This document shows positions 1 through 25,744 of a stretch of DNA of 25,947 nucleotides, piece after piece. The stretch is taken from the IMG/VR virus record IMGVR_UViG_3300032665_000171, positions 1 through 25,947 of that record; one strand, given 5' to 3'. The first letter of the stretch is position 1, and each line of letters starts with the position of its first letter. A program made the translations under genes and the position numbers. Source of the DNA: a virus. Under the pieces are notes generated by a model. That model ran no database searches, was not told the DNA's origin, and saw only the letters and a program-made list of their open reading frames with translations.

Positions 1-3000
1 CAGGTGCATGGCTGTTAAAAGTGTTTACATATGATCCGCCATCAATGTTAATATCATAAGGATTGACTCCTAATGTATTTCCATAGAAACTTTGGATAAC
101 AGAATCGTATATGTTACTAGTAAATGTGTTGCCGTCGACAATCACACCCGGATACTCTAATCCAGACTGTGTTGTTGCCAAATTGATATACCCGTTGTAG
201 GCAACAATACGATCGTTTGCATTGTTAAATGCACCAGCATTAATTGTGGATACATTAGCAACCGGGAAATCAACGTTTGCATCAATCGTGTAAGCATTAG
301 CTAGAACATATAGTATATCATTGTTAACAATAATAGTATTGGCAGTTAATGTTTGTCCTATGTTTGCTGTTGTAATATTACTCCAGAATACAAAGGTATT
401 GGCCGCAGTATAGTTAACACGGTCAAACTTCACCGTGGTTGCAATACTTCTGATCACATTATGTCCAGAATTATTATTATCAAACACATTACGCAATACC
501 GGATATGCAGTTGCACCGGTGCCTGTGCCATTGATTAAAATAGTCGGAGTGGTTGTGTACCCTTTACCAGAATCTGTAATTACAATGCTACCAATGCCGC
601 CTGTGCCATTGAGTGTAGCGTAAGCAGTGGCATTAACCGTTGCGCCGCCACCGGTAATTATTATCTGAGGCGCAAATAAGAAGCCTTCGCCCGGTGTTTC
701 TACAATCACATTAACGACATCGTATGTGTAGTTTTGATACCACTGACTATATACGCTATTAGTTGTACTTAATAAGTTTGCATCACCGGCTTGTTCTCCA
801 TTTGGACTACGATATACATTTAAGTTTGCATCCCAGTATGGTGGCAAGTCAAAGTCGGTTGTGTCTCCGGAGAATTGATCATTGCCTTGATAATCCACAA
901 CAAATTCACGGATTGTTGTTCTGTATGGTTTAACTTCGTTGATATAATCTAAGTAGTATTGTTGGTTATCTGCTACATACGCAGGTACCTGTTCTAACTG
1001 GCGTAGGTATTGAGTTGCACTTAAGAAACTAGTTTTAAATACCCAATCAAGATTCTTTTGTTCTGACAATGCATACTTAACCATAGTAAAAAACAATTGG
1101 TTATAGTCTAGTGCTAAATCATCAACAAAAATGTCATGTTCTATTGCTGTTAGTATTTCTCTTAGCTCAAGTGCCGGAGGAATTGTTGCAGTTTCAATTT
1201 GAATAGTGCCATTCTGAATTCCTACCAGAGATGATGTTAAATTACTATCAACATAGTAAACAACAAATTGATTGTTACTGGCATTCAGTACTTTAACGTA
1301 AGTATTTGCTGTTGGTGTTAGTTTACCGTATTCGAGTAAATTGGCCACCGCGATGTCAGGTGTTACTGTATAATCATATCCAGTCTGGTACCAATCTTGG
1401 AATGTCCAATATAAATTAGTCTTAAAACTCTGTACTGTAACCAATGACCATGTTCCTACTGTTACAGAATTGGTTGTAGTCTTTGTAGCTAATTCGTAAA
1501 TTGCCCACTTGCCCAAATTATTAATATCGCTGTTGACTAAAATTTTATAACCAATTGTTAGCAGGCCTGCATCTACATACGCTAATTCGGCATAGGTATC
1601 AACTACTCGGCTATAACTGCCAGAACTTGGATTTGGAATGGCTTGCTCACTGTTTAACCCAGTCATTAACTTGCGTTCAACTACTGGATATGTTGCGAGA
1701 ATCCCATTTACAAATGTTAGATAATTACTCAGTGCCAGCGACTGGTTAATAAACATACTTTCACGAGGACGAATACCAATGCCGTATGCTTGTGCTGGGG
1801 TTAACGCTGGATCGGGTACTGCGTTACCAGCGGCGTCTTGTCCAACTATACTGTCAACGATTTTACTCTTTATAACAGCAGGAATTTGACTGTGCGGATT
1901 ACCTTCTTGTACCAATTGGTACTCACTGTGTACTACACCAGATTGAACGTTACGTGCGCCAATGTGTAGAACACTATTTTGTCCAGTTAATGCAGAATTA
2001 ACATTATATAATGCAATGGTATCGTCGCGCAATACTGTTGCGTACGGTATGCCCTGTGCTTGTGGATTTATAATTGCAGCAGTAATGTTGTATACGCTAT
2101 TTGATTTTCCGGCTGCTGTATTGATTGATGTCTTACCTGCTACCCAGAAATAGTACCCAACTTGTACTGCACCTGTATCGTCAACAAATGCCATGGCACT
2201 AAATGCGCTATCATCTGCGGCCAACGGAACGCCGTTGCCAACAGTGGCCACATACTCACTAGGCGGAACAGGACTTTGTACCCATTCATAAACTGCAATC
2301 TGACTGCCCGGGAATGTTGTGCCCCATTGGTTTAATCTATAAATCAATTGATCTTGTTCGTAGTTAATATATCTAACTGCATCAACGTCCCACCAAATTT
2401 TACCAACTTGATCAGGACCCCAGTGATAGTCTGTATATATTGTTCCAGTTCCTGCATTATATAACGCAGGATCGGAAGTCAATTGGTAATCAATATCCGC
2501 ACCAATTGCATTTAATAGTTTTCCTTTAGCATGGTCAATATAATCTATAGAAGATAATATAACATTGTTTGACTTATTGTAAATGAATGTTCTACCAATG
2601 CTGTTGATATCTACTGTAGGTGCTTGTTGTCTTGTGCGGGACCAGGTACTTGAACCAGCATTGTAAGTATATACTGCCCAGCCTGTTGCGCCAGCATTTG
2701 TATCTGTGTTTACCCACTGACGATCATTAGTTAACCAACCGTTGGGCGGAGGGTTATTGCCAATTGATGCGTCATTTGATATTACCATAGATTGCAATGT
2801 AAAGATATTACCAGTGCTTGATATACTACCACCCGACGCAATAATGTTTGCGGTGTTTTGTATTGTAATTGTTACACTTGTATTATTTGGAATACTATTA
2901 ACTTGATATAAACCATCATATACACTACTAAATCCTTGTACTACAAAGAATTCATTTTGGGTTAAACTATGTGTAGTATTAAAGACCAATTGTGCAGTTG

Positions 3001-6000
3001 ATCCTAATGAATAGTTCAAGTTTGCTGTAGTCAATGGTGTTGCGTTAGTTCTATATACGTTCCAACCGCCGCCAAAATCTTTGGCTACCCAAATTTTATT
3101 ACCATCAACAATACCAGGTAATGCAGTAATAGTTGAAATATCAAAAATTTGATAATCAACATCGGCTAAGTTTACGTAACCAGATGTAGGTAAGTCCGAC
3201 GAGTATGCAACATTCGCTCTGTTGTTATACAATGAGGTAGAAGTACTGTATATGTTACTAGCATTATACACGTTTGATGTTGTGGTATTTCCAGTTACTG
3301 CTAAATTAACAATGATGTTTCCAGTATTGTAATTATTAGTTGCAGTGAGTGACACAGGGTTTGTTAAAAATACACTTTGGTCTAAAACAAATTCTGTGTA
3401 TTGGTTACTATTAACTGATCCGTATTGCCCAACTTGAAATGCCCATTCTTCGTATACGTTGATGTTGCCTGCAATCGTGTCAAAGGTTGCACTAGTCAAT
3501 GCTGTGATAGCATCAATTGTACCTTTTTGTTTAATATATCCCTGGTAGAACTTAGTCTGCGTTGGGACGCTAATTCCTAAATTGCTCAAGAACGGGCGTT
3601 CGCGGAAGCCAATTAAACCTGCGCTGAATAGTTGGAAATTCTTATCTTGTGGCGGACTGTCTACGTCATAGATATTTTCAAATACTTGTGCATTGTGACC
3701 AAAGCTAGGAAGTAAACCTGTTTGAATATCACCAATATTGATTTGTGTCCAGTTGCTTAATGCAAAGTTCTGGCTAGCAACAATATCTATAGGTGCTGTA
3801 TAAGTTGCATTGTTATAGGTTACCAAGTCGCCTTGCTTGTAATCAGTGCCAGGTTGCCAATTTGCAATTTTTGGATTGCTGTAGATATACCCAGCTGCAC
3901 TTAATGCGCCGTCCCATCCACCGGTTTTTACTCCGTTTAGTTTTAATCGGAATTGACGTGTGCCTTGCTCGGGAATATAAATAATATCGCCAAAGTCATC
4001 AATATTGTCAAATATTAATGTAGTTTCGTATTGAATTAAGTCCAACTCTGCAAATGCAATACCGGTAGTGTCTAGTGTACTAACCTGGAACTGATTGTAC
4101 AATGGTGCCGTAGGGCTATCGCTTCTAAGAATATTAAAATTAGTACTCTTAATTGGTGCAAAGTTTGTATTTAATAAACGGCTACCGTTGGGAATATTAG
4201 TAATTTCATCAATGACAGTCCCAATTGTATTAACTTCTAGCACATCTACTACAGGATTTAATACCAATATTGTGCCAGTGGCCCAACCCTGTTGTGCCCA
4301 GGTTAGGAACTCACGTATACTCAATATCCAATCTCGTGTGGTTTGCAACTCTATGTCAAATGTTGTGAACAAGAAACCTTGACTGGACAAATACCGTTGA
4401 TAACTAATTAAAAAGTCTGCTACCTGTTGTGGCGAAGTAAATGTAGTCCCGTATGGAATAGTTAACGGAGTTTTACTACCTGTCTGATATATCTTAGCTG
4501 TTAAATTATTTACAGTAATTGTTTGCGAATTATTATTTGCAACACTTGGTAAAATATTAAAGAATGGGTGTGACGTATCGTATCCAGACACAGAATAACC
4601 GTTGTTGGTTTTTGTTACTACTACACCGCTATACGAAATAGTTTTAACAGGAACCGGCTTGCCAAGATAAACAACATAATTTTCCGTAGGAATAATAATA
4701 CTAGAATTGGTACTGCCGGGACTTGTTTGCTCGGCTGTAATGCTAATCAGATTCTGATCTGTAAATCCAGCAACTTTATATGCTAGTTGTACACTAAAGT
4801 TATTAAAGTAACTTTCAATTTTAGCAACAGGATCCATGCCAAGATTCTTAACATAGTCAGCAATCCAGTTTAAGTAACCACATGTTCTTAGTACTGTGCC
4901 AGGACTGGTCATAGTATCGCCATTTACGGTCAATAATGTTGGGGCAATCTTTTGATTAGCTAGATTACTGAATTGTCCGGTAACTGGATTTTTATAAAAG
5001 CGACTCAAGTCTAACATTGTAGGAAAATACTGCGCCGGACGAGCCAATGCCAGTGCCTGCTGAATAGCAAAAGGATAATCACTACTACGGCGCCATGCTG
5101 TTTCTACAGGACCATATTCCCCAACTTGAAAACTATTACTAGCAGATGTTGGATTTTGTTTACCAACAATCCCAATTGCAGTTGGATCTAATAGGTTACC
5201 GGCAGAATCAACAGGTATAAACTTGGTTAGTCCCGGACGAGCAAATCTTACGTCGTGGTATGCTAGAGCGTTACTGCCGTTCCATACATATCCAGCTTCT
5301 AAGTCAGCCCACAATGTTGTATTACCACTTGTGTAGGGTGCAGGACCATATCGAGTTGCCCACCATGATGGTATTTTTGTCAATCCCAACATGTTCCATG
5401 GACTAGTGTGTGGGGTATCTGTGTCGAACCAGTAGTTGTAAATGGCTCTCCAAGACCCCTGTAAGTAACTACCATCTACGCTGTCTGTCCATTGGTCGTA
5501 GTTCCAAGTCCACGGATTGTTTTCATTGTAAGATTCGTTTGATGTATAATCAATGTTGTTACTACCAACCCATTCCAAGAAATTCTGCGTGATTAATTGT
5601 GTCCACTCGGGCAAACTATAATCGGTTTTACGGAAACGCCCAGGGATCACATCGTAGTGATTTAGAATACCACGTTCAACTGTAGATTTGTTATTGTTGT
5701 AGATACGTTTTTCAAGTTCAAATAAGAATTCGTCTCTGAAGTCTCCAAACGCCGGAGTAATACTACCATCGTGTCCTTGAATAGCCGTGACTGGGGTTAG
5801 GTAAGTAGTATCTGTAAATATTGCCGGGGGGTAGTCTTGTGCTAATCCCAACTTGATTGGAGTCTCAGGAACATAATTTCCATCAGTGTCCGAGTAATCG
5901 CGGATCATTAATTTGTCACCAAATGTTAGCGGTATATTAATTATAACTTCTGGGCTAACAGGATTAAAAGAATAATCATTGCCATCACCAATTAATTGAA

Positions 6001-9000
6001 CGCCATTATGATATACCAAAACTGCGCGATTGCTCAACGCAGTGGTGTCAAAGATGCTGTTAATTTCGTAGTTTGTCTGACGAGCATTTAATACAGTATA
6101 GTTAATTGTAGAATAGTTACTACCTTGTGGTACCATATCGCTATAATACCAAGGAAAACTACTGTTCTTAACAGAGTTAATACTTGACATGATTGTGTCA
6201 ACACCAGAGATTGGATCGTTATAATCTAATCCTTTTAGCGTTTGACACAGGTGTAAAAACTTATTCTTAAAACGCTGATATTCATTTCTTGCCAGTGTTA
6301 GGCCATTAACGATATTAACCACTGGATCAGTCATGAAAGTCATTGCATAGATTGCCGGACTACTATGTTGTAGTAGCGTGCCGCCCTGTGCTTTTAAATA
6401 TCTGTCTTGAGAAGGAATAGTGGCACTAGAACTAAATGTTGTATTTTCAAGTAACTTATTATAGTGTGTGCGAATTTGACCAAGTGTAATCCCAGAGTTC
6501 GCTGAACCAACTGCCGGGAATACTTGATTTAATGGATTAAGATCGAGGTTCTGCGGAATCTGATAAAACCCAATTGCACTAACGCTATCACCGAATACTG
6601 CAATGTCAATTTTATCACCAACTGCCGGTGTAGACATCAATGCTATAACATTGTAAACACCATAAGGTATTAAATTGTAATCGTTGCCAGGTTCTAGTAT
6701 TTGATTATTTACATAAACCTTAAGATGCGGAATAGTTGCAGAATCTACAGGCAATGCATCAAGTTGAATAGCTGCATAAGCACCAGCTGGAGTAATTGAT
6801 CCAATTGGATATGTTGCACTAGTATCTTGTACAATAGATAAAGAGCGACCATCAAAAAACTTAGTTATAAGTTGATATTGTTCAGTTGGCTCAATACCCA
6901 CCAACCAATTATTCAACTTGATTGTTTCACCATTGGCATTATTTTTAACCAGGTATCCTGTGTTACATGCAATCTTTGATGTGGTGTTTACACCAGACTC
7001 GTAAGTAAAGGTATCAGTGTCGTATGAGTTTTCAAATACAATATCGCCAATGTTATTAAAGTTTTGATACTGTAAAGGAAAGCCCAATACAGAATCATTG
7101 GTGCCTGTTGCCACAGTTGGATAACTAAAGAATGTTGTTCCACTAAATGTGCTGCTAGGATATACTGTAGTGTCGCTGAAACTGTATCCGTTATTGTCTA
7201 CTAGATCAAACAGTGGTGCTTGGTTAAACGCTGTTTTTTCTTGACTGCTATGCCAGCTGGTTCCATCAAACCAGAATGTTTTACCAACGTTGGCACCCTG
7301 AGAAATTAAAACAGATTGTCCAGCAATAACTGGATCATCCGATGTTTCAATTAATCTTAAGAAATATTGACTATTAATATATTCAATGTCAACTTGCCAA
7401 ATTTCATTTGCAACGGTGGTATCGTAGTCATTTGCAAAAATAACACGCATACCTTGAGTCAACAATATTCCATCAAGCGTATACGACTGCTGTCCCTCAA
7501 TGTGAACGAAGGCATCTGTACTATCAAATGTAATTAAATCAACACTATTCTTAGCTTGTGATCCAAAGTTGAATAACTGTAGGTTGGGTTCAAATTCAAT
7601 GATAGCACGACGGCCGGACATATTAGGCCCGTAGTTGACTGAAGTGTTATTGTATGCGGCTGTGGCATTCAATACATCTTTATGGAACCAACGGTTACTA
7701 CGGCTCCAGGCATTACGATCCTGGCTAGAGCGATTAATAGTTATATAATCTGTGGTTGTTGCGATTTCTGATGCAAACGATTCAGGTACAATCAATTGAT
7801 CAACTGGGGCAAGTGCAATACCAGTGCCAACACCATCAACATAATATTGATTGCCTGCATAGGTGCCAGGGACAACTAAGCTATCAAACTGAACTTTAAG
7901 TCCATTGGTGAATATCACGCCGTTTGGACTTGTGTAATTGGTTTTACCAAGAATGTCGTTATTAATATCAATTGGTGTTGATACGTTATCTACTAATTTG
8001 ATTTGTCCTACAAATTCTGGATTACTACTATCTTGATAAAACAAGTAAGCAGCAGGAGCTGTGATCAATGGCACACGTTGATATATGTTATTTTGATTCA
8101 ACCAGAATTGAGTTGATGCATACGTTTTACCGGATCCAATAAAGATCTTTTGTAATGAAGCTACACCAACGGTTGGACGAATTTGTATTGTATAATCTGA
8201 TCCTGTGGGTACCAAATTAATTTGCCATACGCCCGGGCGGTTAGCTGTAGGAACAACGCCTGGCATTAGGCCGCCGGCCACTGTCCAGAAACTATCGTCT
8301 TGTGCATTGTTAATAAAAATAAATGTTTTATTTTGTAATTGATTAGTAATGCCATCTAGGCCTTCGGGAAAGTTCTTCAGGAAGGTACTTAATAATACGT
8401 TTTGTATGTCAGTATAATTAAATGTTACTGCGGCACTAACTGTAGCATTAGTGGGCATACTAACAAAAAAGTCTTGTGCATTTGATTGCGGAACATTAAA
8501 TTGTATTACGCCAGAGTCTGTGCCGTTGTTACTAACACCATATACTTCTCTGGTATTAATAGTTGCCACGTTGGGATCTACGCCATTAACGCCTTCTTCA
8601 CTTTGAATCCAGAAGTTAAAGCCAGGTTGGTCAACTATAAATTTATATGTACCCCCACGAGCCAATGTCAATTGCGTATTAGGATGTCCGCCATAGGTAC
8701 TAAATGTAAAACCACCCACTGCTGTATTTCTTGTAACTGTGTAGTCTGCCAGTAGTGGAGTTGCGCCGGATGTTACTTCAACTGAGTCCGGGCCATTTGG
8801 TATCCAGTAGTAATTGTTATAGTTTACAAACTTATCGTAATCAAAATGTCCATCAAAATTATAATAGTCAGATGTAAATAAACGTTGATGATTATCTACT
8901 AGTCCGCCATTGTTTGCAATACTTTGTAGTAGGTCAATATATCCACTGTTTAATACCACATTGTTGTTTTTATCTTTAACCACAACACTTGGCTCAAGTT

Positions 9001-9205
9001 GATAGTTGGCACGCTGAGTACTAAACTCAGGAACATAATTGTCGCCTAGTTTATATGTTGGAGCAAATGTTCGACCAATATATCCACTAACCGGAATGTT
9101 AACTGCATCAGTTAATAACTGATCTATAGTTGCGCCAAGGAAGCGTTGGTTGGTTACCGATTTAAAGGTATCTGGTAAAAAATTAAGTGTTGATCTTATT
9201 GCCAT
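1..9205 (-). CDS. Giant T4-like baseplate/virion structural protein (partial, C-terminus beyond window)
   Basis: The frame opens at ATG 9205, overlapping the gp6 stop as TAATG, and I found no in-frame stop down to position 1. At least 3068 residues are encoded and the C-terminus is missing. The N-terminus (FLPDTF...NQRFLGATIDQLL, residues 9-27; NYYWIPNGPD near 131-140) looks like the very large structural proteins encoded after gp6 in T4-like cyanophages (recalled, not searched). Landmarks that helped confirm the frame: SRSNRWFHKDVLNATAAYNN near 501-520, GHDGS at 1144-1148, WWATRYGP near 1281-1288, a chitin-binding-like W/Y motif (NWQPGTDYKQGDLVTY) near 1782-1797, HWGPDQVGKIWWD near 2261-2273, VFKTSF and EVKPYRTT near 2722-2764, two beta repeats of the form G-GY..P.I.I.G near 2829-2895, and a YPGV...DGGSYV module near 3014-3061. 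The position equals T4 gene 7 (baseplate wedge, about 1030 aa). A baseplate-peripheral or host-contact role is inferred. The RBS is weak (TAGGCA). Confidence 0.85.
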   Translation of the reverse strand, partial: MAIRSTLNFLPDTFKSVTNQRFLGATIDQLLTDAVNIPVSGYIGRTFAPTYKLGDNYVPEFSTQRANYQLEPSVVVKDKNNNVVLNSGYIDLLQSIANNGGLVDNHQRLFTSDYYNFDGHFDYDKFVNYNNYYWIPNGPDSVEVTSGATPLLADYTVTRNTAVGGFTFSTYGGHPNTQLTLARGGTYKFIVDQPGFNFWIQSEEGVNGVDPNVATINTREVYGVSNNGTDSGVIQFNVPQSNAQDFFVSMPTNATVSAAVTFNYTDIQNVLLSTFLKNFPEGLDGITNQLQNKTFIFINNAQDDSFWTVAGGLMPGVVPTANRPGVWQINLVPTGSDYTIQIRPTVGVASLQKIFIGSGKTYASTQFWLNQNNIYQRVPLITAPAAYLFYQDSSNPEFVGQIKLVDNVSTPIDINNDILGKTNYTSPNGVIFTNGLKVQFDSLVVPGTYAGNQYYVDGVGTGIALAPVDQLIVPESFASEIATTTDYITINRSSQDRNAWSRSNRWFHKDVLNATAAYNNTSVNYGPNMSGRRAIIEFEPNLQLFNFGSQAKNSVDLITFDSTDAFVHIEGQQSYTLDGILLTQGMRVIFANDYDTTVANEIWQVDIEYINSQYFLRLIETSDDPVIAGQSVLISQGANVGKTFWFDGTSWHSSQEKTAFNQAPLFDLVDNNGYSFSDTTVYPSSTFSGTTFFSYPTVATGTNDSVLGFPLQYQNFNNIGDIVFENSYDTDTFTYESGVNTTSKIACNTGYLVKNNANGETIKLNNWLVGIEPTEQYQLITKFFDGRSLSIVQDTSATYPIGSITPAGAYAAIQLDALPVDSATIPHLKVYVNNQILEPGNDYNLIPYGVYNVIALMSTPAVGDKIDIAVFGDSVSAIGFYQIPQNLDLNPLNQVFPAVGSANSGITLGQIRTHYNKLLENTTFSSSATIPSQDRYLKAQGGTLLQHSSPAIYAMTFMTDPVVNIVNGLTLARNEYQRFKNKFLHLCQTLKGLDYNDPISGVDTIMSSINSVKNSSFPWYYSDMVPQGSNYSTINYTVLNARQTNYEINSIFDTTALSNRAVLVYHNGVQLIGDGNDYSFNPVSPEVIINIPLTFGDKLMIRDYSDTDGNYVPETPIKLGLAQDYPPAIFTDTTYLTPVTAIQGHDGSITPAFGDFRDEFLFELEKRIYNNNKSTVERGILNHYDVIPGRFRKTDYSLPEWTQLITQNFLEWVGSNNIDYTSNESYNENNPWTWNYDQWTDSVDGSYLQGSWRAIYNYWFDTDTPHTSPWNMLGLTKIPSWWATRYGPAPYTSGNTTLWADLEAGYVWNGSNALAYHDVRFARPGLTKFIPVDSAGNLLDPTAIGIVGKQNPTSASNSFQVGEYGPVETAWRRSSDYPFAIQQALALARPAQYFPTMLDLSRFYKNPVTGQFSNLANQKIAPTLLTVNGDTMTSPGTVLRTCGYLNWIADYVKNLGMDPVAKIESYFNNFSVQLAYKVAGFTDQNLISITAEQTSPGSTNSSIIIPTENYVVYLGKPVPVKTISYSGVVVTKTNNGYSVSGYDTSHPFFNILPSVANNNSQTITVNNLTAKIYQTGSKTPLTIPYGTTFTSPQQVADFLISYQRYLSSQGFLFTTFDIELQTTRDWILSIREFLTWAQQGWATGTILVLNPVVDVLEVNTIGTVIDEITNIPNGSRLLNTNFAPIKSTNFNILRSDSPTAPLYNQFQVSTLDTTGIAFAELDLIQYETTLIFDNIDDFGDIIYIPEQGTRQFRLKLNGVKTGGWDGALSAAGYIYSNPKIANWQPGTDYKQGDLVTYNNATYTAPIDIVASQNFALSNWTQINIGDIQTGLLPSFGHNAQVFENIYDVDSPPQDKNFQLFSAGLIGFRERPFLSNLGISVPTQTKFYQGYIKQKGTIDAITALTSATFDTIAGNINVYEEWAFQVGQYGSVNSNQYTEFVLDQSVFLTNPVSLTATNNYNTGNIIVNLAVTGNTTTSNVYNASNIYSTSTSLYNNRANVAYSSDLPTSGYVNLADVDYQIFDISTITALPGIVDGNKIWVAKDFGGGWNVYRTNATPLTTANLNYSLGSTAQLVFNTTHSLTQNEFFVVQGFSSVYDGLYQVNSIPNNTSVTITIQNTANIIASGGSISSTGNIFTLQSMVISNDASIGNNPPPNGWLTNDRQWVNTDTNAGATGWAVYTYNAGSSTWSRTRQQAPTVDINSIGRTFIYNKSNNVILSSIDYIDHAKGKLLNAIGADIDYQLTSDPALYNAGTGTIYTDYHWGPDQVGKIWWDVDAVRYINYEQDQLIYRLNQWGTTFPGSQIAVYEWVQSPVPPSEYVATVGNGVPLAADDSAFSAMAFVDDTGAVQVGYYFWVAGKTSINTAAGKSNSVYNITAAIINPQAQGIPYATVLRDDTIALYNVNSALTGQNSVLHIGARNVQSGVVHSEYQLVQEGNPHSQIPAVIKSKIVDSIVGQDAAGNAVPDPALTPAQAYGIGIRPRESMFINQSLALSNYLTFVNGILATYPVVERKLMTGLNSEQAIPNPSSGSYSRVVDTYAELAYVDAGLLTIGYKILVNSDINNLGKWAIYELATKTTTNSVTVGTWSLVTVQSFKTNLYWTFQDWYQTGYDYTVTPDIAVANLLEYGKLTPTANTYVKVLNASNNQFVVYYVDSNLTSSLVGIQNGTIQIETATIPPALELREILTAIEHDIFVDDLALDYNQLFFTMVKYALSEQKNLDWVFKTSFLSATQYLRQLEQVPAYVADNQQYYLDYINEVKPYRTTIREFVVDYQGNDQFSGDTTDFDLPPYWDANLNVYRSPNGEQAGDANLLSTTNSVYSQWYQNYTYDVVNVIVETPGEGFLFAPQIIITGGGATVNATAYATLNGTGGIGSIVITDSGKGYTTTPTILINGTGTGATAYPVLRNVFDNNNSGHNVIRSIATTVKFDRVNYTAANTFVFWSNITTANIGQTLTANTIIVNNDILYVLANAYTIDANVDFPVANVSTINAGAFNNANDRIVAYNGYINLATTQSGLEYPGVIVDGNTFTSNIYDSVIQSFYGNTLGVNPYDINIDGGSYVNTFNSHAP

Positions 9206-18575: not shown

Positions 18576-19469
18576 ATGGCTCGCAATAATTATCTGAATA
18601 ACAAAGATATTCTCAAAGAAATTCACAAAAGCAAAAACACTTACTGCCACTATACAGACCCATCTGTTGCAGATTATGATATGATTTTGCCAGACGTAAG
18701 CAAAATTAATAAAAAGAATATCATGCAAGCACGTAAAGATCGTGCTGTCCGATTGCAAAAATTAGCCCACGAAGCCGCTAGTGCAGATGGTACTAAGCAT
18801 AAAATGGACGAATTTGAAATTAAATTAAAAGAGATTGCCGATACCGATGTTGTGTTCCGTGTAATGACATGGGACCATATTCCTGTAGACGATGTTAAAA
18901 GCCGTAAAGCTGCTGTCAAGGCAATGGAATTAGAAGATGATGGTCCTGCTCGTTCAGAATATGATGACGACGAATTAGATATTGCAGGTAATACCAAATA
19001 CGTTAAAGTAAATTTTCCACCATTTGAACATTTTCAAGTTACCGAAGATGGTACTCCTGTGCTAGTAGGACGTAGTCACTGGAAAGGTGATTTTGTTGCT
19101 GGTGTGTTTAGCCGCGAACACGGTAAAATGACACCAAAACTTGCTCATATGTTTATTAAGCTGTGCGAGCGTTATGCTACACGCTCTAACTGGAGAGGAT
19201 ATACATACAATGATGAGATGCGTAGCCAAGCATTGCTACAACTATCGCAAATTGGACTACAGTTCGACGAGTTTAAGAGCCAGAACCCTTTTGCTTATTA
19301 TACTGCCGCTATCACTAATAGTTTTACTCGTGTTCTTAACATAGAAAAGCGTAACCAAAACTTACGCGATGATATTTTAGAAATGAATAATTTAACGCCT
19401 AGTTACACACGCCAGGGACAAAAGATTAGTTCCACATCGGGTGGCAGCGACGGCGGATACGATGATTGA
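18576..19469 (+). CDS. 55: Late-transcription sigma factor gp55
   Basis: gp55 replaces host sigma on RNA polymerase and recognises the TATAAATA late box. The C-terminal half is diagnostic: YVKVNFPPFEHF at residues 142-153, SHWKGDF at 167-173, and the block NWRGYTYNDEMRSQALLQL at 205-223 followed by FDEFKSQNPFAYYTAAITNSF, which matches sigma region 2 of the gp55 family. At 297 aa it is longer than T4 gp55 (185 aa). About 130 charged N-terminal residues (NNYLNNKDILKEIHKSK at 4-20) precede the core. The C-terminus is Gly/Asp-rich and acidic. It is the first gene of the rightward block, with a clear Shine-Dalgarno, and its stop overlaps the TTG start of the small lipoprotein gene. Confidence 0.92.
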   Translation: MARNNYLNNKDILKEIHKSKNTYCHYTDPSVADYDMILPDVSKINKKNIMQARKDRAVRLQKLAHEAASADGTKHKMDEFEIKLKEIADTDVVFRVMTWDHIPVDDVKSRKAAVKAMELEDDGPARSEYDDDELDIAGNTKYVKVNFPPFEHFQVTEDGTPVLVGRSHWKGDFVAGVFSREHGKMTPKLAHMFIKLCERYATRSNWRGYTYNDEMRSQALLQLSQIGLQFDEFKSQNPFAYYTAAITNSFTRVLNIEKRNQNLRDDILEMNNLTPSYTRQGQKISSTSGGSDGGYDD

Positions 19470-19655: not shown

Positions 19656-19674
19656 GATTTGAGTTTACTCAATC
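19656..19674 (+). promoter_or_regulatory. Hairpin before gp47
   Basis: GATTTGAG-TTTA-CTCAATC folds into a stem with one bulged T and ends 20 bases before the gp47 ATG. It is followed by CTTTCCTCT, only a weak pyrimidine tract. It could attenuate transcription or mask the gp47 start region, which has no obvious Shine-Dalgarno. Confidence 0.3.
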
Positions 19675-19694
19675 TTTCCTCTATACTGATTATT

Positions 19695-20711
19695 ATGACA
19701 AATCTATTTAAAAAAGCTGCAATCTTTACTGACATACACTTTGGGTTGAAGTCTAATAGTACGCTACACAATGAAGACTGTTTAGCATTTGTAAAATGGG
19801 CCACTGCCAAAGCCAAAGAAGAAGGATGCGAAACCTGTTTATTCTTGGGAGATTGGCATAACAATAGAGCAAGTCTTAATATTTTAACCTTAGGCTACAG
19901 CCTACGTGCATTAGAGCACCTAAATGAAAACTTTGACAATACTTACTTCATTCCCGGCAATCATGATCTTTATTATCGCGACAAGCGTGACGTACAGTCT
20001 GTGGAATGGGCCAAGCACCTCAGCAATATACACATTTGCAACGATTGGACTACTTTCGGGGATGTCACTATTGCTCCGTGGCTGGTTGGAGATGACCACA
20101 AGCGACTTAAAAAATTAAAAGGTAAGTACATGTTTGGGCACTTTGAGTTGCCCGGATATTTAATGAATGCCATGGTTGCTATGCCGGACCATGGTGAGAT
20201 CACCGGAGATGATATGCAAGGGTTTGAGCATGTTTTTTCTGGCCACTTTCACAAACGACAAACCCAGCGCAACGTTACCTATATTGGTAATGCGTTCCCA
20301 CATAACTATGCCGATGCCGGCGATGATGATAGAGGGTTAACTATTTTAGAATGGGACAAGCCCCCTGTATACCATAGTTGGCCCGATCAACCTATGTATC
20401 GTGTGTTCAGCTTAAAGGATGTATTGAATCATACAGAAACTATGCTTAAACCAAATATGCATGTTCGTGTAAACTTAGATGTAGATATTAGCTACGAAGA
20501 AGCAACCTTTATTAAAGAAACATTTATTGAAACATACAAGCTGAGAGAGATTACTCTTATTCCAGCCAAGGTAACTGATCTAACCGATTACGAAATAGCT
20601 GGTAATATTGAATTCGAGTCAGTCGATCAGATTGTGTATAGTCAGTTAAGCAGTATTGACAGTAACCAGTACAATCCAAATTTATTATTGGATATCTACA
20701 GGAATCTATGA
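19695..20711 (+). CDS. 47: Recombination endonuclease subunit gp47 (Mre11/SbcD-like)
   Basis: gp47 is the nuclease half of the gp46/gp47 complex that resects DNA ends for recombination-dependent replication and host DNA breakdown. I choose ATG 19695 (338 aa, like T4 gp47 at 339); an upstream TTG at 19659 would add 12 residues inside a hairpin. Metallophosphoesterase motifs are present in order: FTDIH with D13 and H15, LGDWHNNR with D53, PGNHD with N89, H90 and D91, MFGHFEL, and SGHFHKRQ near 184-191. All metal ligands expected for an active Mre11-type site are seen. The stop overlaps the next ATG as ATGA. Confidence 0.93.
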   Translation: MTNLFKKAAIFTDIHFGLKSNSTLHNEDCLAFVKWATAKAKEEGCETCLFLGDWHNNRASLNILTLGYSLRALEHLNENFDNTYFIPGNHDLYYRDKRDVQSVEWAKHLSNIHICNDWTTFGDVTIAPWLVGDDHKRLKKLKGKYMFGHFELPGYLMNAMVAMPDHGEITGDDMQGFEHVFSGHFHKRQTQRNVTYIGNAFPHNYADAGDDDRGLTILEWDKPPVYHSWPDQPMYRVFSLKDVLNHTETMLKPNMHVRVNLDVDISYEEATFIKETFIETYKLREITLIPAKVTDLTDYEIAGNIEFESVDQIVYSQLSSIDSNQYNPNLLLDIYRNL

Positions 20712-21421
20712 GGATTTATACCAACGGATGTTCATTTACTTACGGTGACGAATTACAGTCACCCGATACATCTGCGTGGCCAGTGCTGTTAGGTAATCTA
20801 TTAGGTGCAACAACTGTCAACGATGGGGTGAGTGGAGGTACAAATTATAGAACTATATACCGCACCATTAAGCAATATCAACATAATTTTGATTTGTACG
20901 TTATAGCATGGACCACTAATACCAGATTTACTTTTTATAAGTCAGACAACAATTACGAGATAAACTTTAATCCGGCATTGCAAAACAGCATGTACGGTAA
21001 TAGCTCATTTTATCATAATTGGGGCGAGACCCTATACAATGTTTGGTACAACGAGCTGTATGCTTTTAAATTATGGCTTCAGCAAATTATACAATTACAA
21101 TCTTTTATCAAAGCACCATGTCTGATGATCAATACAATGCATAATAATATAGGTAAATGGTTTGCACCTAAGGAGCAGTTTATAGATTCTGTCAGAGAGT
21201 TAATCAATTTTAATATCATGACTGACGAACAAATATTTGACGAATACAACGAAATACAGTACTATGTACAACTAATCGACACATCAATGTTTTATAATTG
21301 GAATGCGTTTTATATTCAAGATTTATGTAACAAATTTCCGTGTGGACCAAATGGACACATATTAGAAGCTGGTCACACTCACTTGGCAGAATTATTATAT
21401 AATCACTTATGTTTAAAATAA
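20708..21421 (+). CDS. SGNH-hydrolase-like protein inserted between gp47 and gp46
   Basis: The 237-aa protein shows SGNH-type blocks in order: NGCSFTYGDE with Ser9 (block I), NDGVSGGTNYR at 38-48 (block II, Gly), VIAWTTNTRF at 65-74 with Asn71 (block III), and GPNGHILEAGHTHLAELL at 213-230 with His217 (block V). The Asp usually three residues before the His is Pro214, so it may use a Ser-His dyad or have lost activity. SGNH enzymes hydrolyse or transfer acyl groups on lipids, glycans or carbohydrates; the substrate here is unknown. It overlaps gp47 by 4 bases and gp46 by 13, so it is embedded in the recombination operon. No signal peptide is visible, so it is presumably cytoplasmic. T4 has no such gene between 47 and 46. 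Confidence 0.65.
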   Translation: MRIYTNGCSFTYGDELQSPDTSAWPVLLGNLLGATTVNDGVSGGTNYRTIYRTIKQYQHNFDLYVIAWTTNTRFTFYKSDNNYEINFNPALQNSMYGNSSFYHNWGETLYNVWYNELYAFKLWLQQIIQLQSFIKAPCLMINTMHNNIGKWFAPKEQFIDSVRELINFNIMTDEQIFDEYNEIQYYVQLIDTSMFYNWNAFYIQDLCNKFPCGPNGHILEAGHTHLAELLYNHLCLK

Positions 21422-23178
21422 AAGATTTAACCGTTAAGAACTTTATGAGCGTGGGTAATACTACCCAGGCTGTTAACTTTGACCGGCAAGACTTAACCCT
21501 GGTACTAGGTGAAAACTTGGACCTGGGTGGCGACGATTCTGGTGCACGGAATGGCACAGGTAAGACTACTATTATTAATGCCTTAAGTTTTGCACTTTAC
21601 GGCAATGCTCTTACTAACATTAAGAAAGATAACTTAATCAATAAGACCAATGGTAAAAACATGATGGTTTGTATTGATTTTGAAAAAGACGGAGTTAACT
21701 ACCGCATTGAACGTGGGCGCAAGCCAAATATAATGAAGTTCTTTGTGGGTGATACAGAAAAAGAAATCACCGATGATGCACAGGGCGATAGTAGAGAAAC
21801 ACAAGCAGAGATAGAACGTATGTTGGGTATGAGCCACGATATGTTCAAGCATATTGTAGCACTAAACACCTACACTGAACCGTTCCTTAGTTTAAGATCA
21901 AACGATCAACGTACTATCATTGAACAGTTACTGGGCATTACTTTATTGTCAGAAAAAGCAGATAGTTTAAAAGAGCTAAACAAAAAAACTAAGGATGCTA
22001 TTACCTCAGAGGAGTTCCGCATTAAGGCCGTAACAGATGCCAACGTTCGTATACAAGAACAGATCGAAGCATTGAAGCGTAGACAAACCCTGTGGAACAA
22101 CAAGCACGATGAAGAGATTAACAAGACACAAGATGCGATCGAAGAGCTTCAGAAGATCGATATCCAGGCCGAGATTCAGGCACACCAAGCGTTCAAAGCC
22201 TGGGATCAGACTCGAAAGGATCTCAATGAATTATCTTCGGCGATTAGCCGTACCAAATTGGACCGTAACCGCGAGGAGAAAACGATTAGCAAGATATCAG
22301 CAGAACTTGTTTCGTTGGAAAGTCATACGTGCCATACGTGCGGACAAGAGTTCCATGACGAAAAGCACCAACAGGTCCTGGGATCAAAGCAGAGAGAATT
22401 ATCAGTGGCACGGGAGAGTGCGGAATCTCATGTTGCCACTTTGGCTGAGTTACAACAAGCTGAGTCTGGGCTGGGCAAACTCGGCACCCGTCCAGTAATG
22501 TTCTACGATAAAGAAGCGGATGCTATTCATCATCAAGCCACGGTAGATAATTTAATTAAACAATTAACTGCCAAAGCCGCAGAGTCGGATCCTTATAATG
22601 AGCAAATTGCAGAAATGCAAACTACAGCATTAGAAGAAGTTACATATGATGTTATTAACGAGTTATCTAACTTAAAAGATCACCAAGAATTCTTGCTTAA
22701 ACTGTTAACAAACAAAGATTCGTTTATTCGTAAGCGTATCATTGATCAGAATTTAAGTTATTTAAATGCCAGATTAGGGCAGTACCTGGATCGCATCGGC
22801 TTACCACACACAGTTAAGTTTAATAATGATCTGAGTGTAAGCATTACAGAACTGGGACGTGACCTAGACTTTGATAATTTATCCAGAGGCGAGCGCAATA
22901 GACTTATCTTATCTCTATCCTGGTCGTTCCGTGATGTATGGGAAAGTTTATATCAACCAATTAACTTATTGTTTATTGACGAGCTAATCGATTCGGGCAT
23001 GGACAGTAACGGTGTTGAAAATAGTTTAAGTATTCTTAAAAAGATGAGCCGTGAAGCCAACAAGTCAATTTGGTTAGTATCTCACAAAGACGAACTGGCA
23101 GGCCGGGTAAACAATACCTTGCATGTTATTAAAGAAAACGGATACACAAGTTATAATACGGACGTAGACATTGTTTAA
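21409..23178 (+). CDS. 46: Recombination endonuclease subunit gp46 (Rad50/SbcC-like)
   Basis: This is the ATPase/DNA-tethering partner of gp47. It has a Walker A GARNGTGKTT (45-54), a zinc hook CHTC with Cys308 and Cys311 at the apex of a coiled coil (about 175-440), an ABC signature LSRGER at 491-496, a Walker B INLLFIDE with Asp524-Glu525, and an H-loop His559. All motifs needed for ATP-driven dimerisation are intact. Length is 589 aa against 560 in T4. The start ATG overlaps the SGNH gene by 13 bases and the end overlaps the first radical SAM gene by 8. Confidence 0.94.
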   Translation: MFKIKDLTVKNFMSVGNTTQAVNFDRQDLTLVLGENLDLGGDDSGARNGTGKTTIINALSFALYGNALTNIKKDNLINKTNGKNMMVCIDFEKDGVNYRIERGRKPNIMKFFVGDTEKEITDDAQGDSRETQAEIERMLGMSHDMFKHIVALNTYTEPFLSLRSNDQRTIIEQLLGITLLSEKADSLKELNKKTKDAITSEEFRIKAVTDANVRIQEQIEALKRRQTLWNNKHDEEINKTQDAIEELQKIDIQAEIQAHQAFKAWDQTRKDLNELSSAISRTKLDRNREEKTISKISAELVSLESHTCHTCGQEFHDEKHQQVLGSKQRELSVARESAESHVATLAELQQAESGLGKLGTRPVMFYDKEADAIHHQATVDNLIKQLTAKAAESDPYNEQIAEMQTTALEEVTYDVINELSNLKDHQEFLLKLLTNKDSFIRKRIIDQNLSYLNARLGQYLDRIGLPHTVKFNNDLSVSITELGRDLDFDNLSRGERNRLILSLSWSFRDVWESLYQPINLLFIDELIDSGMDSNGVENSLSILKKMSREANKSIWLVSHKDELAGRVNNTLHVIKENGYTSYNTDVDIV

Positions 23179-24043
23179 CAGAGATATAAAAGTACTGCAC
23201 ATTGAGCCAACTGATGTTTGTCAGGCGGCCTGTGCCCTTTGCGCTCGTGAGATCGATCCTGCGTTTGATAAAACTATCAAACATCATTTATCTGTTGATC
23301 AAATTAAAGAAAAGTTTAGCGAAGACTTTATTCGCGGGCTGGACAAAATGTTTATGTGTGGTAACTACGGTGATCCTGCCGCAGGCAAATACACATTAGA
23401 AATTTTTGAATATTTTAGAAGTATCAATCCTGATATTACCTTAGGTATGAATACCAACGGTGGATTACAAAGTATGACCTGGTGGATTAAACTAGCACGA
23501 TTGCTCAGAAAGCCAAACGATTTTGTTGTGTTCAGTATAGACGGGTTAGAAGATACCAACCACATATACCGCAAAAACGTTAGTTGGGAAGTGCTAGAAG
23601 CCAACGTAGCATCATTTATTGCTGCCGGTGGCCCTGCCCACTGGGACATGCTGGTCTACAAACACAATGAACATCAAGTTGATGCTTGCGAAGCACTAGC
23701 AAAACGAATGAAGTTCAAATGGTTCCGTGCCAAGGTTAGCAAGCGAGAATATATTAACGGGCTAGAGGAACCAGCCAATTGGCAACGACCAACATACACC
23801 CCAGGTAAAATCGATTGTCACGCACTGGCAGAAGCAAGCATTTACATAGATGCACAAGGCAATATTAGTCCTTGTTGCTGGTTAGGCGCAAGGCAACAAG
23901 ATTTTATCACAGATATTAATCAAGTTGCAATACACTGGGATAACCCAGAATTGGCAGATCCTGTGTGTGTTATCACTTGCACCGCCAAGGCCAATATAAC
24001 TGTATTTGAAAGTCAATGGCAACGCGAGGTTGAACTATGCTAG
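23171..24043 (+). CDS. Radical SAM/SPASM-like enzyme, copy 1
   Basis: The 290-aa protein has the radical SAM cluster motif CQAACALC with Cys17, Cys21 and Cys24, which would bind a 4Fe-4S cluster and cleave SAM. The usual GGEP motif is replaced by CGNYGDP (about 62-68). A conserved strand VVFSIDG follows. The C-terminal part (CHALAEASIYIDAQGNISPCCW, then CVITC) is SPASM/twitch-like and could hold an auxiliary cluster. Enzymes of this type modify peptides or proteins, or small molecules; no substrate is evident. Start TTG 23171 lies 8 bases inside gp46; no ATG is near and homology to copy 2 supports this N-terminus. It overlaps copy 2 by 7 bases. Confidence 0.82.
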   Translation: MFNRDIKVLHIEPTDVCQAACALCAREIDPAFDKTIKHHLSVDQIKEKFSEDFIRGLDKMFMCGNYGDPAAGKYTLEIFEYFRSINPDITLGMNTNGGLQSMTWWIKLARLLRKPNDFVVFSIDGLEDTNHIYRKNVSWEVLEANVASFIAAGGPAHWDMLVYKHNEHQVDACEALAKRMKFKWFRAKVSKREYINGLEEPANWQRPTYTPGKIDCHALAEASIYIDAQGNISPCCWLGARQQDFITDINQVAIHWDNPELADPVCVITCTAKANITVFESQWQREVELC

Positions 24044-25059
24044 CCACGTGGCATTTTCATATTGAAATATCTAGTAAGTGTACTTTACGGTGTACTCGGT
24101 GTGCCCGACAAGAAGTCCCAGATAGTTTAGTTAATACTGAGTTAGATTTAGAGTTTTTTAAAAGAAATTTTACATCAGAATTTATTCTTGCTAATGTTGA
24201 GAAGATTACGTTCTGCGGCGACGATGGCGATCCTATATATGCACACGATTTAATTGCAGTAATTGAATATATCAAAAGTATTAAACCTGTTGAGATTGTT
24301 ATTGTTACCAATGGTAGTCATAAGAAAACAGAATGGTGGACAGCACTAGGCAATGTGCTCACAGAAGTAGATACTGTACACTTTAGCGTGGACGGGTATG
24401 ACAATGCAAGTAACAATTTGTACAGGATAAACAGCGATTTCGTGTCTATTGTCCAAGGTATTGAGGCTCTAAGGGCTACCAGCCGGTGTCGTTTAGTATG
24501 GGCCGCTATTGCGTTTAAATTTAACGAAGATCATATAGAATACATGCAGTCTTTAGCAACAAAATTAGGAATGGATGCTTTCCAATTAACTCGTAGTACT
24601 AAGTTTGGAAAGATATATCCTAGCTACGGAATTGATGATCCCTTACAACCTAGCGATAGATATGTAAGTAGTTCACACAGGTTTGAAAGAGATGTTGTAG
24701 TATTGACCAAGCGCGGACTTAATGCTGAAGTTAAGCAGATCAATTTGGAATTATTTAAGAAGACCCGGCCGCAAGGCGATGTTGTACCTAATGTAGTTCC
24801 TTTATGCGAAATTGGTAACAAGGGCTTGTACATAGATGCACAAGGTAGATTGTTTCCTTGTTGTTGGGTAGCTAATCGCTATAGCCACAATACAGAATGG
24901 CAGGAAATTGCTGGTCGTTTTAATTTAAACACTAGAACTCTTCAAGATGCTGTAAATGACAAGTTTTGGATTAGAGATTTTAAGCAGTTTGCATGGCAAG
25001 AATGCCGTACTAAGTGCACCAGAAATGTAGTAAATCAAGAATATGCAACTTCCTGGTAG
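24037..25059 (+). CDS. Radical SAM/SPASM-like enzyme, copy 2
   Basis: The 340-aa protein is a paralogue of copy 1. Shared features are HIE...CTLRCTRCARQ (Cys15, Cys19, Cys22), FCGDDGDP in place of GGEP (about 59-66), TNG..KKTEWW, VHFSVDG...YR, and a C-terminal GLYIDAQGRLFPCCW. It is about 50 aa longer, mainly in a charged segment before the C-terminal cysteines (near 200-260) and in a tail with CRTKC. Its ATG overlaps the stop of copy 1 (ATGCTAG), so the two are probably made in step and may work as a pair. The target is unknown; peptide or protein modification is the commonest role for SPASM members. Confidence 0.82.
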   Translation: MLATWHFHIEISSKCTLRCTRCARQEVPDSLVNTELDLEFFKRNFTSEFILANVEKITFCGDDGDPIYAHDLIAVIEYIKSIKPVEIVIVTNGSHKKTEWWTALGNVLTEVDTVHFSVDGYDNASNNLYRINSDFVSIVQGIEALRATSRCRLVWAAIAFKFNEDHIEYMQSLATKLGMDAFQLTRSTKFGKIYPSYGIDDPLQPSDRYVSSSHRFERDVVVLTKRGLNAEVKQINLELFKKTRPQGDVVPNVVPLCEIGNKGLYIDAQGRLFPCCWVANRYSHNTEWQEIAGRFNLNTRTLQDAVNDKFWIRDFKQFAWQECRTKCTRNVVNQEYATSW

Positions 25060-25078: not shown

Positions 25079-25507
25079 ATGTCATGGCTTTACGAAACCT
25101 CTCTAGTAGAATCTCTTCCCGAAGATTGTGTCGGATTTGTTTATTTGATTACTAATAAACTGTCTGGTAGAAAATATATTGGCAAAAAGCTCGCAAAGTT
25201 TAGTAAAACAGCGTATAAAGTAGTTAAGCTGAAGAACGGAACTAAGAAGAAAAAGAAGATTCGTAGCAAGATTGACAGTGACTGGCAAGACTATTATGGT
25301 TCTAGCCCGGAACTAACAAAAGATGTAGTTGCATTGGGGGTCGAAAACTTTAGTAGAGAAATACTTTACTATTGTCGATCAAAATCCGAATGTAGTTACA
25401 TTGAAGCAAGAGAACAATTTGCTCGTAGAGTATTAGAAAGCAACGATTATTATAACGGACACATCCAGGTCCGTGTACATGGCTCACACATTATCAACAA
25501 GATTTAA
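25079..25507 (+). CDS. GIY-YIG family endonuclease
   Basis: The 142-aa protein contains GFVYLI at 19-24 and KYIGKK at 32-37, the GIY-YIG pair with a 9-residue gap. It is followed by a Lys-rich insert (KKKKK near 56-60), SDWQDYYGSS at 67-76, FSREIL at 91-96 and a Glu at 109 in YIEAREQF, the likely metal-binding Glu. Small GIY-YIG nucleases with this DW..YYGS pattern are frequent in T4-like phages, either as free-standing homing (Seg-like) enzymes or DNA-processing nucleases. No DNA-binding tail of the I-TevI type is seen. It begins 19 bases after the radical SAM gene and ends at the start of a structured non-coding stretch. Confidence 0.8.
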   Translation: MSWLYETSLVESLPEDCVGFVYLITNKLSGRKYIGKKLAKFSKTAYKVVKLKNGTKKKKKIRSKIDSDWQDYYGSSPELTKDVVALGVENFSREILYYCRSKSECSYIEAREQFARRVLESNDYYNGHIQVRVHGSHIINKI

Positions 25508-25744
25508 TTCAATAGACACAAAGTCTGCTCAGTAGTAACAATCAATATACAGTAGTGACTCGCACAGGTTAATATCATGTGCCTATGACAACCGGATAAT
25601 AACGGGGACGGAAGTCTTGCCGCTGTAGCAAGCACTTAGCAACTATCCTTAACAGGACGATGATCGGATATGCCTATTAACAACCGGTTTTGCTATTTGA
25701 AAAGATTTTAGGAAAGGCTAAAAGAAGGAGTAATACTCCTACGT

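Follow-up and report, generated by a model that had tools for sequence, protein, structure and literature searches.

What would a T4-like phage gain from two related radical S-adenosylmethionine (SAM) genes placed directly behind a recombination gene? The question is raised by a stretch of viral DNA (IMG/VR record IMGVR_UViG_3300032665_000171, positions 1 to 25,947; the whole 25,947 nucleotides are referred to as the window) in which two overlapping genes, designated rS1 and rS2, follow gp46. Their products carry a CG(N/D)(Y/D)GDP motif and are variable cargo of large uncultured T4-like water phages, whose genomes commonly contain a near-invariant operon with five other radical SAM genes. We favor, with a probability of roughly 45%, a reading in which both genes encode active, twitch-type radical SAM enzymes that serve as accessories of a phage gene set for building or decorating a surface glycan, most likely by abstracting a hydrogen from a carbon of a sugar or nucleotide sugar. 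The two genes are as follows.

23171..24043, plus strand: rS1, radical SAM protein of 290 amino acids, TTG start
24037..25059, plus strand: rS2, radical SAM protein of 340 amino acids, ATG start

Sequence, cysteines and predicted folds of rS1 and rS2

Both proteins exceed the gathering cut-off of the Pfam Radical_SAM family (PF04055; E=3.8e-11 for rS1 and 5.9e-8 for rS2), and aligning one with the other gives 25% identity in 279 columns (BLASTP E=1e-25). The cysteines of the SAM-cleaving cluster correspond to C17/C21/C24 in rS1 and C15/C19/C22 in rS2, and the signature motif reads CGNYGDP (residues 63–69) and CGDDGDP (residues 60–66), respectively. A twitch-like auxiliary site consists of C216-x13-G230-x4-C235 (C236) plus C266-x3-C270 in rS1 and of C257-x12-G270-x4-C275 (C276) plus C323-x3-C327 in rS2; a C-terminal PCCW...CX3C is common to both. 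The CX3CX2C motif is kept in all 83 orthologues examined (36 of rS1 and 47 of rS2), CGNYGDP in 36 of 36 rS1 orthologues, and CG(D/N)DGDP in 47 of 47 rS2 orthologues. C216, C235, C266, and C270 are invariant among rS1 orthologues, as are C257, C275, C323, and C327 among those of rS2. Because these motifs are fixed across orthologues, they cannot be ascribed to chance. The second cysteine of PCC likewise never varies in rS1 or rS2; it is missing from some CG-type paralogues. Ratios of nonsynonymous to synonymous substitution (dN/dS) against the relative L009 are approximately 0.044 for rS1, 0.047 for rS2, and 0.052 for gp46; these are rough values with synonymous sites close to saturation, and they point to strong purifying selection on both genes.

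The original prediction described the two proteins as SPASM-like. A full SPASM domain has seven cysteines that bind two auxiliary clusters, arranged as CX9-15GX4C followed by CX2CX5CX3C and a further cysteine. Only C-x12/13-G-x4-C and the terminal CX3C are present in rS1 and rS2; the cysteines of the second cluster are missing. Consistent with this, rS1 has no match to Pfam SPASM (PF13186) and rS2 scores 20.6 bits, below the cut-off of 21.5, which rules out full SPASM membership. Four cysteines located after the radical SAM core of each protein instead form the predicted single-cluster site of a twitch (half-SPASM) domain, and "twitch-like" is the description that fits.

Neither protein reaches the cut-off of any curated NCBIfam family. 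NF033640 (N_Twi_rSAM; cut-off 170 bits) gives 42.3 bits for rS1 and 25.8 for rS2, neither of which is a member, and the prokaryotic viperin family NF038283 (cut-off 180 bits) gives 30.2 bits for rS2 and no match for rS1. The top NCBIfam score of both is to the tungsten oxidoreductase maturase family TIGR04317 (W_rSAM_matur), at 44 bits for rS1 and 58 for rS2. This score is the evidence for a role as maturases of a cofactor or metalloenzyme that serve other phage or host enzymes, which we consider very improbable: the cut-off is 380 bits, the score reflects general similarity of the radical SAM core, and linkage to a metalloenzyme gene is absent. Membership in the viperin and tungsten-maturase families was rejected on these cut-offs. 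Placement outside every curated family, together with a signature fixed in each orthologue group, upholds the proposal that CG..GDP marks a distinct subfamily. PHROG 21308, a profile of 735 positions, was considered as an informative fusion and rejected, as its true matches are CP220-type proteins of only 330–350 amino acids.

AlphaFold2 models were obtained with a predicted local distance difference test score (pLDDT) of 87.1 and a predicted template modeling score (pTM) of 0.88 for rS1, and 87.0 and 0.89 for rS2. Foldseek comparison with the PDB ranked BlsE first for rS1 (E=4e-11), with SuiB, SkfB, MoaA, viperin-like enzymes, anSME, and BtrN also matched. For rS2, viperin ranked first (E=1e-10) and BlsE fourth; SuiB, MoaA, SkfB, EpeE, and DesII were also matched. 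Sequence-profile matches were to MoaA, SkfB, BtrN, and BlsE (E=1.2e-7). The modeled folds place rS1 and rS2 among twitch/SPASM-type enzymes and do not separate sugar, nucleotide, and peptide substrates.

Cargo slots and origin of the pair

The genes that surround rS1 and rS2 in the window are listed below.

18576..19469, plus strand: gp55-like late sigma factor, conserved left flank (PHROG 12791 E=3.4e-80)
19659..20711, plus strand: gp47, SbcD-like recombination nuclease subunit (PHROG 100 E=3.1e-56); the true start may lie downstream of the listed one
20708..21421, plus strand: SGNH-like/DUF6071 protein, variable cargo of the gp47-gp46 slot (Pfam DUF6071 1.2e-6)
21409..23178, plus strand: gp46, SbcC-like recombination nuclease subunit, left border of the rS1/rS2 slot (PHROG 77 E=7.8e-105; synteny)
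25079..25507, plus strand: SegE-like GIY-YIG endonuclease gene (segE), right border of the rS1/rS2 slot (Pfam SegE_GIY-YIG 7e-32; synteny)
25557..25698, plus strand: Polynucleobacter-1 RNA (RF01718), directly 3' of segE (102 bits; gathering score 37)

Successive genes overlap by 4 bp (gp47/SGNH), 13 bp (SGNH/gp46), 8 bp (gp46/rS1), and 7 bp (rS1/rS2), and a gap of 19 bp separates the end of rS2 from segE. These coordinates, with the Pfam matches and the 25% identity, bear out the description of two overlapping, related radical SAM genes after gp46 with an overlap at each junction.

In IMG/VR, 197 stretches encode relatives of rS1 and 303 encode relatives of rS2; the best 80 of each set were fetched. 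The close relatives are metagenome contigs throughout, none of them demonstrated to be complete. Their genes were called as the longest open reading frame (ORF), several cargo genes were annotated by eye, and E-values of the locus scans are relative to the candidates only. The order gp55-gp47-[cargo]-gp46-[rS1, rS2]-segE recurs in these relatives. Among 92 non-redundant loci, which were picked for having at least one of the two genes, 55 contain both, 20 only rS2, and 17 only rS1. On a gp46 tree of 78 loci, presence of rS1 changes at least 18 times and that of rS2 at least 10 times, with the caveat that gp46 may itself recombine. Large contigs with one of the genes were searched for the other and contain only distant paralogues of it. 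The pair is not obligatory: with 37 of 92 loci single-copy, an obligate partnership was rejected. The original prediction had treated the two copies as a unit and named independent inheritance as what would refute it; independent inheritance is what the survey shows.

The gp47-gp46 slot holds zero to four cargo genes. In the 64 loci with gp47 in view, these include an N-twitch-like radical SAM cluster (c3; 12 loci), family c4 (10), the SGNH gene (7), and a third CG-type radical SAM gene (6); sulfotransferase, AMP-ligase, and more are found as well. The SGNH gene is thus variable cargo, and at 7 of 64 loci its proposed co-occurrence with rS1 and rS2 was rejected. Because the cargo varies, gp47-gp46 looks like an insertion slot, as does gp46-segE, and the coupling to recombination genes that had been proposed reduces to a positional link. 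A 564-amino acid ORF that fuses a CG-type radical SAM protein to a short-chain dehydrogenase/reductase (SDR)-like domain occurs in two loci (L076:8860-10554 and L078:8860-10554); in L062 and L066, the SDR is a separate gene directly behind the CG-type gene. Fusion in one case and adjacency in the other hint at a shared pathway.

Location in a DNA-metabolism block would be explained if rS1 and rS2 acted on nucleotides, either like viperin or in DNA or RNA modification, converting a nucleotide or base to block competing phages, for example, or to protect phage DNA. The top fold match of rS2 to viperin structures and its weak match to NF038283 are in keeping with such a role. This explanation is nonetheless improbable. 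The NF038283 score lies far under the viperin cut-off, viperin lacks the invariant twitch cysteines of rS1 and rS2, and the flanking slots carry glycan-type cargo. In G010, one of the large related contigs described below, thymidylate synthase appeared ordinary and no gene supporting a hypermodified-base pathway was seen when judged by eye; DNA hypermodification was rejected on this ground.

How the two genes came to lie side by side was addressed with a tree of 57 proteins. Phage rS2 groups with three Bdellovibrionia proteins (support 100/98), and rS1 forms a separate clade with a marine phage protein (100/99), which rules out recent tandem duplication in the phage. Judged from this tree, rS1 and rS2 are ancient paralogues that were brought together, not local duplicates. 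The marine phage contig is deposited in a Pacearchaeota metagenome-assembled genome (MAG) and encodes rS1-like and rS2-like proteins approximately 9 kb apart. By eye, this contig (NZDU01000042.1; L158/L213) resembles a marine phage, with a lysozyme-like gene, short phage-like genes, and two CG-type radical SAM genes; its assignment to the archaeal MAG is probably a binning error.

Other features of the window were noted. The Polynucleobacter-1 RNA also lies right after segE in nine fetched relatives (L009, L012, L020, L052, L060, L104, L114, L131, and L141) and was found in 8 large contigs when 20 were searched. A 2010 paper lists this RNA for Burkholderiales and for fresh water and estuary; its recurrence in segE-linked loci and large phage contigs indicates that this orphan Rfam RNA is at least partly phage-borne. 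A minus-strand ORF of at least 3068 amino acids (window 2-9205) runs off the window end and adjoins baseplate genes. The T4 late promoter consensus (TATAAATA) occurs at one site in the window and at few in relatives, a frequency that supports no inference on expression timing.

A core radical SAM operon and its sugar-type companions

Ten large related contigs (85–344 kb) contain 9–21 Radical_SAM genes each, and an array of mostly N-twitch radical SAM genes was seen in seven of the ten. Array members in contig G003 belong to NF033640 (226–400 bits; cut-off 170). Scanning IMG/VR with one array gene yielded 430 relatives. From the best 80 of these matches, 40 non-redundant array loci with full flanks were selected by the gene rE and are hence related to each other. 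They reveal the operon rA-rB-rC-rD-rE-X361-carbamoyltransferase, in which rA to rE are five different N-twitch radical SAM enzymes and X361 is a protein of 361 amino acids; rA is present in 39 of the 40 loci and the other six genes in all 40.

L150:13126-L151:5857 (G010), also L152-L157 and L216-L295: core operon loci

DxD glycosyltransferase-like genes usually lie upstream (a YDEP gene in 36 of 40 loci and a GT2 gene in 24 of 40), and an amidinotransferase gene accompanies the operon in 25 of 40. SGNH, UDP-sugar dehydrogenase, nucleoside diphosphate (NDP)-sugar epimerase, and DegT genes are also found nearby. A set of ten large contigs was chosen for the array, not for rS1 or rS2; at least one CG-type relative is present in all ten of this set, an rS2-like gene (at least 40% identity) in five, and an rS1 orthologue (56–60%) in two. 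This pattern, with the array constant and rS1 and rS2 variable, identifies the array as the core and the two genes as accessories that often accompany it.

A profile of all 28 diverse family members proved too divergent for a genome scan, and an rS1-centered profile was used; cellular relatives of rS2 therefore come only from genomes already found with that profile. The scan placed the family in Bdellovibrionia/Oligoflexia, Microcoleus, Myxococcota, and others. In several Bdellovibrionia genomes, as many as ten paralogues lie in islands, together with an N-twitch radical SAM, a B12-binding radical SAM, an SDR, and a DxD glycosyltransferase-like gene, with approximately 26–43% identity to the phage versions. 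By eye, three of these islands (L207, L208, and L206) contain many radical SAM genes, HTTM-like membrane proteins, a PP-loop ATPase-like gene, and a GmhA-like gene. The phage protein X361 (L154:5008-6093) has a weak relative (L164:9073-10005; 24% identity, E=3e-11) in a Bdellovibrionaceae MAG, where it is encoded immediately behind a CG-type radical SAM gene. Another bacterial homologue (L168) is surrounded by nucleotide-sugar dehydrogenase, SDR, Gfo/Idh-type oxidoreductase, acetyltransferase, glycosyltransferase, and DegT genes, a neighborhood that, by eye, resembles an O-antigen cluster.

Genes for glycosyltransferase-like, carbamoyl-, amidino-, and sulfotransferase, SGNH, NDP-sugar epimerase, UDP-sugar dehydrogenase, and DegT proteins are of the kind usually found in pathways that build and decorate sugars, and we therefore take a sugar or nucleotide sugar to be the probable substrate of rS1 and rS2. 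The assignment of a substrate rests on this neighborhood and on fold; the closest solved folds include enzymes of sugar-nucleosides or nucleotides (BlsE, viperin, BtrN, and DesII). Recurrence of the CG..GDP family and its companions in Bdellovibrionia islands and the O-antigen-like cluster is consistent with such a substrate, and SAR11 phages offer an analogy, as their radical SAM cassettes vary within a host-recognition cluster together with glycosyltransferases (PMC7029224). Each enzyme would contain a SAM-cleaving [4Fe-4S] cluster and one auxiliary cluster in its C-terminal twitch domain, and would take a hydrogen from a carbon of the sugar or nucleotide sugar, leading to oxidation, epimerization, or dehydration/elimination. 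The auxiliary cluster may accept the electron or bind substrate. It is conceivable, as speculation, that the second cysteine of PCC donates a hydrogen as in radical epimerases. The product of the gene set, to which rS1 and rS2 would contribute alongside the other radical SAM enzymes and the transferases, may alter the envelope glycan of the infected cell, blocking superinfection for example, or sugars on tail fibers.

Several observations weigh against this reading. The glycosyltransferase-like genes have DxD motifs only and no significant Pfam match, and peptide-modifying enzymes (SuiB, SkfB, anSME, and EpeE) are among the fold matches at similar scores. rS1 and rS2 lie far from the tail/glycan module, and they come and go while the five-enzyme core is invariant, so that the functional link is one of gene family and genome, not of fixed adjacency. 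Moreover, the substrate, structure, and activity of both proteins are predictions.

The same peptide enzymes, with anSMEcpe as the anSME structure, raise the alternative of protein modification by rS1 and rS2, with a protein of the phage or host (at tail-fiber residues, for instance) undergoing epimerization, crosslinking, or oxidation. Twitch/SPASM enzymes are common peptide modifiers, and a reading through of G010 placed the core array just downstream of tail-fiber genes. We judge this alternative unlikely. No recognition element for ribosomally synthesized and post-translationally modified peptides (RiPPs) was seen for rS1 or rS2, and no precursor peptide is adjacent, in agreement with the original prediction; there is no small conserved ORF between the genes, and a distant precursor is possible. 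No structural protein gene adjoins the pair, the companions are glycosyltransferase-like, carbamoyltransferase, NDP-sugar, and sulfotransferase genes, and the bacterial homologue L168 lies in its O-antigen-like cluster.

Mosaic presence could also mean that rS1 and rS2 are loosely selected cargo of no single pathway and provide a generic boost to host metabolism. This was the 2010 reading of the Campylobacter phages CP220 and CPt10, which have 11–12 radical SAM genes and whose module was called interchangeable and probably non-essential (PMC2853527). It is a distinctly unlikely account of the present genes, given dN/dS as low as that of gp46, the near-invariant order of the core operon, and the recurrence of the gene families together in unrelated phages and Bdellovibrionia.

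A more far-reaching version of the glycan reading is doubtful. It proposes a lineage of widespread, uncultured jumbo T4-like phages with a dedicated radical SAM assembly line, in which five different core enzymes in fixed order and interchangeable CG..GDP accessories such as rS1 and rS2 would carry out an unprecedented modification of a surface glycan or of the phage's own tail fibers, with a sister system in Bdellovibrionia.

Comparison with known phages and enzymes

Radical SAM enzymes carry out C-H reactions that rank among the most difficult in biology. Although such enzymes are costly and sensitive to oxygen, these phages retain approximately a dozen or more each, and the two tested here are under strong selection. 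If their product is indeed a modified surface sugar, it would represent a chemically new route by which phages remodel host envelopes or their own fibers. A fixed operon, exchangeable accessories, and bacterial sister clusters make the role of phage radical SAM genes testable with defined gene sets.

T4-like phages rich in radical SAM genes were reported in 2010 (PMC2853527), 2017 (PMC5332604), and 2020 (PMC7029224), with counts and context. The proposal of an undescribed phage modification pathway therefore holds only in part: such phages have been known since 2010, and those reports name no substrate. CP220/CPt10 and the Pelagibacter phage Mosig are isolated T4-like phages with several radical SAM genes, some of which belong to the present family at 22–31% identity. 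Mosig shares carbamoyltransferase, SGNH-like, DegT, and methyltransferase genes with the phages described here. CP220 shares the amidinotransferase, with NDP-sugar transferases nearby; its radical SAM proteins form their own distant clade, contain GNYCEP or GSVGEP instead of GDP, and occupy another genomic slot than rS1 and rS2. The T4-like ocean phage genome TARA_ERS488813_N000010 (183 kb, 12 radical SAM genes) was discussed for its Fe-S assembly genes, not for a radical SAM operon or these subfamilies (PMC5332604); we liken it by description, not by sequence. In SAR11 phages (pelagimyophages), glycosyltransferases have been proposed to change the surface against coinfection (PMC7029224). Our literature search, which left many subscription papers outside and is weak evidence, found no description of the fixed operon of five radical SAM genes, of the CG..GDP accessory family with its cargo slots, or of the gene set shared with Bdellovibrionia.

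Among characterized enzymes, SPASM/twitch proteins (anSME, PqqE, BtrN, SuiB, SkfB, and MoaA) resemble rS1 and rS2 in fold and in a C-terminal auxiliary-cluster domain (Foldseek E of approximately 1e-4 to 1e-10). rS1 and rS2 differ in lacking the second-cluster SPASM cysteines, in the replacement of GGEP by CG(N/D)(Y/D)GDP, and in an identity of only approximately 10–18%. BlsE, a cytosylglucuronate decarboxylase of an antibiotic pathway (PDB 7vob), shares their fold at 16–18% identity. NF033640 proteins combine a radical SAM core with one twitch auxiliary site, as do rS1 and rS2, but the twitch half is N-terminal in the former and C-terminal in the latter. The core array of the phages described here is made up of NF033640 members, which also adjoin CG..GDP proteins in Bdellovibrionia.

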